Positions 38,189-63,639 of a stretch of DNA of 64,000 nucleotides are shown one piece after another. The position numbers were made by a program, and so were the translations under genes. The notes under the pieces are model-generated. The model saw only the letters and a program-made list of their open reading frames with translations, was not told where the DNA came from and searched no databases. Origin of the DNA: Methanohalophilus sp. RSK (GTDB taxonomy: Archaea > Halobacteriota > Methanosarcinia > Methanosarcinales > Methanosarcinaceae); contig NZ_RDSK01000002.1 in the NCBI RefSeq assembly GCF_003722075.1, positions 1 to 64,000 on the forward strand, in the 5' to 3' direction. Position 1 is the stretch's first letter; each line of letters opens with the position of its first letter.

Positions 38189-38725
38189 TCAATTTTCACA
38201 ATTGTCCAGTGTATAGCGCAGGGGTTTATGGTCAACCCCTTTTACATTTGTAGGTCCTTCATTTTTCATACCGATTTTTTTAGCAACTTTTCTGGAAGCA
38301 ATGTTATCCTCATGCGAAAAAGCGATGAACTGCTTACAATCCAGTTTGCGGCAAGCGTGATGCAAGAAGATCTGGATAGCCTCGGTTGCAAATCCCCGGT
38401 TCCAGTGTTTTGGTAAAATGGACCAGTAAACCTGCTATGCTCCCTTGGCCGGGTCAGGCAGCATTCCAACAGAACCGACAAATTCATCACTGCTCTTTTT
38501 TGCGACAGTATAGGCATAGACCTCATCTGGTTCATTGTAGTTTTCCATCGTTTTATGGAAAAACCTGCGGGTATCTTTATAGGATGCAGGTTTTTGACTG
38601 AAGAAAAAATATTTTGTAGCTTTGTCATTTGAGATAAATCTGTAAAAACCAGCAAAATCTTTCGCCTGCAGCGGCCTTATGACAAGCCTTTCGGATTCCA
38701 TGATTTCATGTATTCTTGCTGGCAT
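38189..38725 (-). CDS. GNAT acetyltransferase with an in-frame TAG
   Basis: RimJ/RimL-type GNAT of about 178 residues. The first part has MESERLVIRPLQ and VGSVGMLPDPAKGA; then a TAG (38435-38437, codon 97). The frame continues perfectly with QVYWSILPKHWNRGFATEAI, the acetyl-CoA loop region, and ends in the late GNAT motif HEDNIASRKVAKKIGMKNEG before TGA 38189. Everything else is intact, so the TAG is either a lone nonsense mutation or is decoded, e.g. as pyrrolysine. The start could be ATG 38725 or ATG 38701; no clear ribosome site. The acceptor substrate is unknown. Confidence 0.75.
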
Positions 38726-38843
38726 GGGTATACACATGGGATAAAGACTTATGTGTTTTACCGTTGCTGGCATCAAATTCAATAAAATTGCAATGTGTAA
38801 AATATGGCGAAAAACTAATGAAATAGATTATTGATTATACCGC

Positions 38844-60202: not shown

Positions 60203-60470
60203 ATGTATCAGTAAAGACAATCAATAAAAAGTTTTTATGCTCAATTTCTTCTTTTTGAAGGTATTATTGCTAAACCCACAGGAAAAATTATCATTCATTA
60301 GTAGCAACATTGTTTCGGCATATAATTATCAGACTTGCAGCTATTGATAATTCGAGGGGAGATGTTTGCCTCTTATGCAAGGGAAATTCATTGGTTGGAG
60401 TTCCCTGCATTTGATAAATAATTCTGTCACATGAATGCTACATATAACAGGGGAATTTTGGAGGAAATAC

Positions 60471-62249
60471 ATGGCAAAATACAGATGTTCGGTTTGCAAC
60501 TGGGTTTATGATGAGGAGGTTGAAGGACAGGATTTTGATTCACTGCCTGATGACTATACATGTCCGGTATGCGGGGCTCCCAAATCCGCTTTTGTTCCTG
60601 AAGGCGGGGAAAAGGAAGATGAATCGGTAGAAACGACTGTTGCCGACAAGATCGTCGAACAACTTGAAGCCTTCGGTGTCAGGTTTGTCTATGGGATTCC
60701 CGGGGATTCCAACCTGCCCCTGATAGACTCCATCCGCAGGAGTGACAAAATAAAATTCATTCTCACAAGACACGAAGAGACCGCTGCTTTCATGGCTTCT
60801 GCACATGGGAAGATCACCGGCGGGCTGGGCGTCTGTATCTCCATAGCGGGCCCAGGTTCTACAAACCTTATCACCGGTTTAATGGATGCTGCTACCGACA
60901 GGAGTCCGGTGCTTGCCTTTGCCGGTCAGGTGGCAGAGGTCTATCTTGGAAGTGAGGCCTTCCAGGAGATCGACCAGATAGAACTGTTCTCTCCCTTTGC
61001 TGAATTCACAGAAACCATTGCCCGGGAGAACCAGGCGCTCGGTCTGGTCACAAGGGCTACTAAATATGCCTTCAAAAAGCCCGGTGTTGCGGTACTCAGC
61101 ACACCGACAGACATCCTGGCAGGCAAACTTAGCGGGGATGTATATTTCGCTGAAAAGAGGCTGGTTTCAAACCAGACCGCTCCAAGACCTGAAGATGTGG
61201 AAAAGGCTGCGGAATTGATCAACAATCACGAGAAAGTCACTCTCTTTGCAGGCTGGGGCTGTCGTCACAGTGGTGAATTGCTAACACAACTCTCACAAAA
61301 AATCAAAGCCCCCATTGCCACTACATCCAGGGTCAAGGGCGTGGTACACGAAACCGATCGTTATAGTCTGGGTGTACTTGGTTCCATAGGTTCAAAACAT
61401 GCGGCAAAAGCTGTACAAAACAGTGAACTTATAGTTATCATAGGTTCGGGTTTCAGACAGGCCAACCTTGTTCCTTCAGGAATCAGGATTGTCCAGATAG
61501 ATATCGATCCGACCAAGATCGGAAAGACCTTTGATGTCGATGCTCCTATTGTCGGGGATGCGGATCTTGTACTTAAAGACCTTCTCCCCATTGTCGATGA
61601 AAAGGAAGAAATCACTGAGTTTTTATAGCGCATCGATCGGATGAAAAAGGAGCATTATGAGGAACTAGAAACTGATGCACAGGACCTCTCCATACCTGTA
61701 AATCCCGGTTATGTTGTACAGGCCATTAAACGCCATGCAGACACTGATGCTATAATTTGTGTAGATGTGGGCGACCATACCTACTGGTTCTACAAGAAAT
61801 TCATGTGTGAAGGCCAGAAAACATTAATGTGTGCCAATATTGCCAGTATGGGATTCGGACTGCCTGCAGCCCTTTCGGCAAAACTTGATAATCCTGACAG
61901 GCAGGTAATATGTGTCACAGGAGATGGCGGGTTTGGAATGCTTATGGCTGATTTCACCACTGCTGTGCGTGAAGAGCTCGGGATCAATGTCATTGTCTTT
62001 AATGACGGCAAACTCAAGAACATAAAAAAGGAAGAATTAAGGTCCAGTTATCCTGAATTTGGTGTTAGTTTCCCCAATCCCGATTTTGCGGAATATGCAA
62101 AAACTACCGGAGGCGAAGGTTACAGGATAGAAGACCCGGCAAAACTTGATAAAGCTCTTGAAGAAGCATTCAAATCCACCAAACCCTCTCTTATCGATGT
62201 GGTTGTAGACCCGGATAAGACTGCTGCAAGTACTAAAAGAGTGGATTAA
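60471..62249 (+). CDS. Rubredoxin-fused TPP enzyme (pyruvate oxidase-like) split by in-frame TAG
   Basis: A 592-residue protein if TAG 61626-61628 (codon 386) is read through; otherwise it is two ORFs. Residues 1-45 are a rubredoxin (CSVCNWVYD, CPVCGAP). Then the TPP enzyme: PYR domain with FVYGIPGDSNLP and the activating Glu in RHEETAAF, central domain (FAGWGCRHSG), and, after the TAG in the linker, the PP domain with GDGGFGML...NVIVFND, the TPP-Mg motif. PoxB/acetolactate-synthase family; the rubredoxin suggests an electron outlet from the TPP centre. Start ATG 60471 follows GGAGGAAAT. The second half has no ribosome site. Product and electron acceptor are not certain. Confidence 0.85.
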
Positions 62250-62700: not shown

Positions 62701-62847
62701 ATTGTACAAAGCCAATAGACCTGCAAGGTTTGGTCTGTTGTCTTAATCCTTTTTCGTTCATCTGGTTGACGTAAGGTTTATTAGATATTATGCAACATCT
62801 ATTCACGATTGTGAAAAAGATTGACGGGAATTTTACGGAGGAAGGCA

Positions 62848-63639
62848 ATGAAGGATGCATTAAAAACACTGAGAGAAACAAAACCATTGGTTCATCATAT
62901 TACCAACTGGGTTACAATTTATGACTGTGCAAATATAACAAGGGCGTTTGGTGCTCTTCCCGTAATGGCTCATGCTGTAGAAGAATGTGCTGATATGACT
63001 AAAATTTCCTCTGCTCTTGTACTTAATATCGGAACCCTGACTTCTGAACTTATCGAATCCATGATAATTTCGGCAAAGGCTGCAAACGAAAAACAAATTC
63101 CCGTGGTACTTGATATAGTAGGAGTGGGTGCAACTCAATTCAGAAACCAAATGGCTGCAAAGATCCTTGACAGTGCTCATGTTGATATCATTAAAGGCAA
63201 CTATTCTGAGATTGCAAAACTGGCAGGTGAAAATGCCCGGACAAAAGGAGTTGAAGCAACTTCTATCAATGCTGATTCCGGCTGGCTTGCAAAGAATTTA
63301 GCCACATCAAGGTCATGTACTGTTGTGATGACCGGCAAAGAAGATATAGTCAGTGATGGTTCAAGGATATTTTCCATAAAAAACGGCCATTCAGAAATGG
63401 GTTCAATTGTGGGCACCGGTTGCATGGCTGCTTCAATAATAGGTTCATTTGCAGCCCTGAACGATGATTTCTGTGATGCAGCAATAGATGCTTTGACTTT
63501 CTTTGGGGTTGCCGGGGAACTTGCGGCTGCCAGGTCAAACGGCAGTGGCAGTTTCAAGATGCATTTGTATGATGAAGTGTCCGGGCTTACTGATGAAAAA
63601 GCAGGACCTATGACAAATATTGAGAGTATTGATGGCTGA
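62848..63639 (+). CDS. thiM: Hydroxyethylthiazole kinase
   Basis: A 263-residue ThiM, phosphorylating 4-methyl-5-(2-hydroxyethyl)thiazole for thiamine salvage. Motifs: [14 protein letters not shown] (substrate loop), [21 protein letters not shown], and the P-loop/oxyanion site [12 protein letters not shown] with the catalytic Cys. ATG 62848 is chosen for the ACGGAGGAAGG ahead; the longer TTG frame is rejected. It is followed by thiE 26 bp later, forming an operon. Confidence 0.92.

Follow-up and report, generated by a model that had tools for sequence, protein, structure and literature searches.

An in-frame amber codon in a rubredoxin-fused ThDP enzyme gene of Methanohalophilus, probably decoded as pyrrolysine

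Can a gene interrupted by an amber codon still encode a working enzyme? This question is raised by a locus in a 64,000-nucleotide stretch of DNA from Methanohalophilus, a halophilic methanogenic archaeon (G000:C2:1-64000, referred to here as the window). G000 denotes the source genome, a 1.97-Mb draft of 18 contigs that is 99.6% complete. The gene lies at 60471..62249 on the plus strand and, with its TAG read, would specify a rubredoxin-ThDP (pyruvate-oxidase-like) enzyme of 592 codons, an assignment based on the sequence, on Pfam and on unbroken 592-residue orthologues. The in-frame TAG is codon 386 (61626..61628, plus strand), which is GAG in the closest relative and GAA in three more sister species. 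A previous sequence-only reading of the window had suggested that UAG may be decoded at this site, in which case the enzyme would be a new host for pyrrolysine.

One gene across the amber codon

The start of the gene, ATG 60471, is preceded by a GGAGG ribosome-binding site (60460..60464, plus strand). From this start to the TAA at 62247-62249, the sole interruption of the frame is the TAG. The upstream part (60471..61625, plus strand) was shown by Pfam to carry rubredoxin (residues 3-41), TPP_enzyme_N (56-172) and TPP_enzyme_M (243-371), and it ends in EEITEFL. After the TAG, the same frame picks up as RIDRMKKEHYEELETD. This downstream part (61629..62246, plus strand) holds the remainder of a linker helix and TPP_enzyme_C (432-577), which is last in the Pfam domain order. 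Stops account for 5.3% of codons in the five other frames of the downstream part, and the probability of 206 open codons following the TAG by chance is about 1.5e-5. Given this value and orthologues that are unbroken across the junction, the open frame is not due to chance. When compared with the copies in sister species, the gene has no frameshift, no second stop and no downstream decay.

What enzyme is encoded? The nearest solved structure by sequence is that of E. coli PoxB (PDB 3eya). The protein scores far under the NCBIfam pyruvate-oxidase equivalog thresholds (481 bits against PRK08611, where the cut-off is 742). Judged from sequence, the annotation reaches only as far as "pyruvate-oxidase-like, rubredoxin-fused ThDP enzyme". 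In an AlphaFold model (mean pLDDT 88), residue 386 is placed inside a helix (382-403) joining the middle and C-terminal domains, within a block that has a pLDDT of 92. This helix is predicted to lie outside the conserved motifs. Downstream of the gene, an ORF at 62821-63639 (plus strand) resembles, as judged by eye, hydroxyethylthiazole kinase (ThiM) of thiamine salvage.

The sequence-only reading had claimed that the TAG splits one gene with the same frame on both sides, that decoding would give a 592-residue product whose UAG-encoded residue (codon 386) sits in the linker before the PP domain, and that the gene carries no other defect. These claims agree with the re-read frame, the Pfam order, the unbroken orthologues, the model helix and a dN/dS in the range of intact genes. 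It was also right that the second half has no ribosome site. It was mistaken in stating that no natural start precedes the second half, as an ATG (61641..61643, plus strand; codon 391) lies four codons past the TAG.

This ATG raises the possibility of two proteins. Translation would end at the TAG and resume from ATG 61641, and the two products would assemble as do the ThDP enzymes that have separate Pyr and PP subunits. ComDE is such a two-subunit ThDP decarboxylase, and the break does fall in an inter-domain linker close to a potential start. Against this, a search for a GGAGG-like site before ATG 61641 found none, whereas the true start has one, and the ATG is a possible although unlikely place for reinitiation. 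The break would also cut helix 382-403 of the model. In the intact orthologues of sister species, Met391 is simply a normal internal residue, the methionine of "IDRM". Lastly, none of the orthologues examined is split here, the sole broken relative (in genome G017) being broken near residue 440. A split enzyme is accordingly very unlikely.

Codon 386 among relatives and the age of the change

Intact copies of the gene are present in four sister genomes, with 96% identity in G035 and 94-95% in G032, G034 and G031. Codon 386 is GAG in G035, GAA in the other three, and either GAA or GAG in all of the Methanococcoides orthologues examined. In more distant orthologues the column is occupied by A, S, K, Q, D, G, V, M or T. 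The TAG is private to one assembly, and the column is not conserved as UAG in any sister species that has the gene. Judged from these codons, the TAG is a single recent G-to-T transversion that turned GAG (Glu) into amber at a variable position.

Could pyrrolysine have been recruited at residue 386 for a new chemical or regulatory role? Nothing except the codon itself speaks for such a role, while the ancestral Glu, the variable column and a location away from the conserved motifs, in a linker helix, all speak against it. The likelihood of a new role is close to nil. The suggestion of a new pyrrolysine host has thus fared differently in its two parts: from its sequence the enzyme probably does contain pyrrolysine, but a special function for the residue is unsupported.

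Signs of decay are absent from the rest of the gene. Relative to G035, dN/dS is 0.08 before the TAG and 0.14 after it, within the range found between pairs of intact genes (0.08-0.12 before the TAG position and 0.09-0.20 after it). Downstream of the TAG there are five nonsynonymous and seven synonymous private changes, most of which may predate the TAG. The TAG is too young for selection since its origin to be measured well.

The same observations bear on the idea of a recent nonsense mutation. In that case most of the product would end at residue 385, lacking the PP domain and inactive, and a gene for a dispensable enzyme would be starting to decay. The privacy of the TAG is consistent with this, as is the presence of the release factor aRF1 (see below). 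The gene can also be lost, since G033, G036 and G037, three of eight Methanohalophilus genomes, lack a full-length orthologue. Yet a second lesion is absent and no relaxation of selection is seen, and the genome is able to decode UAG. Moreover, mid-gene stops relative to G035 are mostly TAG, while ordinary decay should yield TAA and TGA too. A nonsense mutation is the foremost alternative, but an unlikely one. The earlier reading had held that homologues pointing to a recent nonsense change with decay elsewhere would count against decoding; a recent change, from Glu, was seen, and decay elsewhere was not. Outside the genus, the orthologue of G017 (from the genus with the Methanococcoides records) occupies two frames (L021, which is G017:C1:2397646-2398971, plus G017:C1:2397198-2397656).

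Capacity for amber decoding and the use of TAG in a third of the genome

The genome encodes the means to read UAG. A tRNA-Pyl with anticodon CUA (pylT) is clustered with pylS, pylB, pylC and pylD, all four of which score above their NCBIfam cut-offs. The check for pyl genes that had been proposed for this genome thus found the whole set. The expectation of UAG in methylamine methyltransferases was also borne out, as MttB, both copies of MtmB and MtbB have exactly one in-frame TAG apiece. In Methanohalophilus portucalensis, pyrrolysine has been detected in MttB by LC-MS/MS (PMC4928046). The genome also has one full-length, normal copy of aRF1, so that termination competes with UAG decoding; an extra partial aRF1 match is taken to be a Pelota-like relative. 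In a reporter of M. acetivorans, amber was read at only 20-30% (PMC2933860).

Is there a local signal for decoding? An Rfam search of 61500-61900 for a PYLIS-type element gave zero matches, and the 100 nt past the UAG fold more weakly than shuffled sequences (z +1.2) and form no stable PYLIS-type stem-loop. Read-through of UAG is probably either partial or general across the transcriptome, without a local signal element.

The use of TAG was surveyed in stretches that total 670 kb, or roughly one third of the genome, and that were annotated with a simple home-made gene caller. The predicted ORFs (n=577) end in TGA (299), TAA (265) or TAG (13). At least seven of the 13 TAG-ended frames carry on as the same gene. 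These encode the ThDP enzyme, a tRNA-methyltransferase-like protein (UPF0020 domain), a CopA-type ATPase, a glycosyltransferase, a TPR protein with two TAGs, a PAS protein and a large surface-like protein. An internal TAG is also found in a GNAT gene and in the gene for MfnA, and about ten non-methyltransferase genes in the sampled third of the genome have an in-frame TAG. Six predicted genes, including pylB, end in TAG with the next stop 2-39 codons on and without a clear coding continuation. Taken together, the census suggests that UAG is sense more often than stop in Methanohalophilus. The pylB gene (G000:C1:303902-304963, minus strand; L115:18902-19963) ends in its TAG directly before the start of pylC, and read-through would add 39 residues; pylB likewise terminates in TAG in other Methanosarcinaceae (PMC2933860).

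Raw ORF merges over TGA or TAA are as numerous as those over TAG and do not count as evidence on their own; orthologue comparison was used instead. Among 341 genes common with G035, the clean mid-gene stops of this genome comprise three TAG, one TGA and no TAA. The three TAGs replace GAG in the ThDP gene and CAG in both the tRNA-methyltransferase-like and CopA genes. A test for conserved open windows around stops was also applied, in which the coding frame was required to score best, as a guard against antisense-frame confounding. The TGA and TAA matches of this test look like ordinary boundaries of adjacent genes. A scan of viral contigs turned up no relative.

These counts also address the possibility of a one-base sequencing or assembly error in which GAG was read as TAG. 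The difference is indeed a single base in an 18-contig draft, and the species is represented by one assembly. Against an error stand the completeness of that assembly and the two further private ambers, compared with one TGA and zero TAA, since a bias toward TAG is unexpected from random error. An error at codon 386 is highly improbable.

Several other TAGs are older than that of the ThDP gene in being common to several species. Within the window, a GNAT acetyltransferase gene (38189..38782, minus strand) has an in-frame TAG at 38435-38437 (codon 116) that falls in the identical column in G000, G035, G032, G031 and G036. The copy in G036 has additional lesions, and a TAG also occurs, once, in the G034 copy. 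On sequence grounds, the GNAT gene rather than the ThDP gene is the stronger pyrrolysine candidate of the window. In the TPR protein (G000:C9:124419-125090, L190, minus strand), the two TAGs are three codons apart (codons 106 and 109) and both occupy identical columns in six species (G000, G035, G032, G034, G036 and G031). At these columns sense codons are found in G037 and G033, which are more distant and have TAG elsewhere in the gene. The TAG of the PAS protein is common to G000, G034 and G035. The PAS frame of the source genome (G000:C9:263434-263991, minus strand) has 185 codons against about 563 in G035, which may reflect a truncation or a downstream shift of this copy.

The strongest of the conserved-TAG cases is MfnA (G000:C1:40372-41508, L229, minus strand), which scores above its equivalog cut-off and has a single match per genome. 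MfnA is the tyrosine decarboxylase that acts in methanofuran synthesis, and we infer that it is essential in Methanohalophilus. Codon 41 of its gene is TAG in five Methanohalophilus genomes, within the conserved N-terminal SSMCTxPHxxA...AH segment, and the column is Val, Leu or Ala in relatives. A protein started after the TAG would lack this segment.

Probable neutral gain of UAG and comparison with known systems

From the sequence evidence, the amber at codon 386 is probably decoded as pyrrolysine at a tolerant site and probably arose by neutral drift. The gene would encode a single pyruvate-oxidase-like ThDP enzyme of 592 residues with a fused rubredoxin, and a G-to-T transversion in the source species changed its GAG of Glu386 into TAG. 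Some or all ribosomes would insert pyrrolysine at this codon and so complete the protein, because the cell has an amber-decoding tRNA-Pyl, its synthetase and the biosynthesis genes. A lysine-like residue would be tolerated, and the change near neutral, because residue 386 varies among orthologues and lies in the helix that joins the middle domain to the C-terminal one. We infer decoding of this codon, pyrrolysine as the inserted residue and a functional enzyme. Read-through as pyrrolysine would account for the older, conserved TAGs as well as the recent, private ones.

A broader proposal is that UAG is a general pyrrolysine sense codon in Methanohalophilus, on which ordinary genes including that for MfnA depend and which genes gain by drift. 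This proposal is tentative, with a likelihood that falls somewhat short of even. If it is true, the supply of pyrrolysine would be essential even without methylamines, and the ThDP enzyme would be one recent example. If UAG must be decoded in five species to express mfnA, a single-copy gene from a core cofactor pathway, then growth of these species on methanol should likewise require the pyl genes. Such a requirement would contrast with Methanosarcina acetivorans, in which loss of pylT affects methylamine use only (PMC2933860). The ThDP gene adds a case in which drift has probably brought pyrrolysine into an enzyme unrelated to methylamines. Of greater use, it draws attention to a genus in which UAG seems to serve as a sense codon more often than as a stop.

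How does this gene compare with known systems? Like MtmB, MtbB and MttB, it has an in-frame UAG in a genome with the same pyl machinery, and in those proteins the codon is decoded as pyrrolysine. Unlike theirs, which is an ancient, conserved and catalytic column, its UAG is private and lies at a variable linker site. As an enzyme, it has the three ThDP domains in common with the PoxB-type pyruvate oxidase of E. coli (3eya), but the archaeal protein carries an N-terminal rubredoxin and scores far below the equivalog cut-offs. Kivenson et al. are said to have described, in Science in 2025, an archaeal "Pyl code" in which every TAG is read as pyrrolysine. The rarity of TAG and the many in-frame TAGs in ordinary genes are reminiscent of this code, whereas the six sampled genes that end in TAG without clear continuation, pylB among them, may not fit a code in which all TAG is sense. 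A close parallel is Thg1 (tRNA-His guanylyltransferase) of M. acetivorans, a published precedent for pyrrolysine in an unrelated protein (Heinemann et al., 2009; reviewed in PMC2933860). Thg1 has experimental proof and is another protein from another genus, while the ThDP case is known from sequence alone; in Thg1, pyrrolysine is inessential for activity (PMC2933860). In both cases a single species gained an amber in a gene that has no link to methylamines and whose orthologues have ordinary residues. By this analogy, the ThDP enzyme would fall with Thg1 in the class of new, private TAGs.
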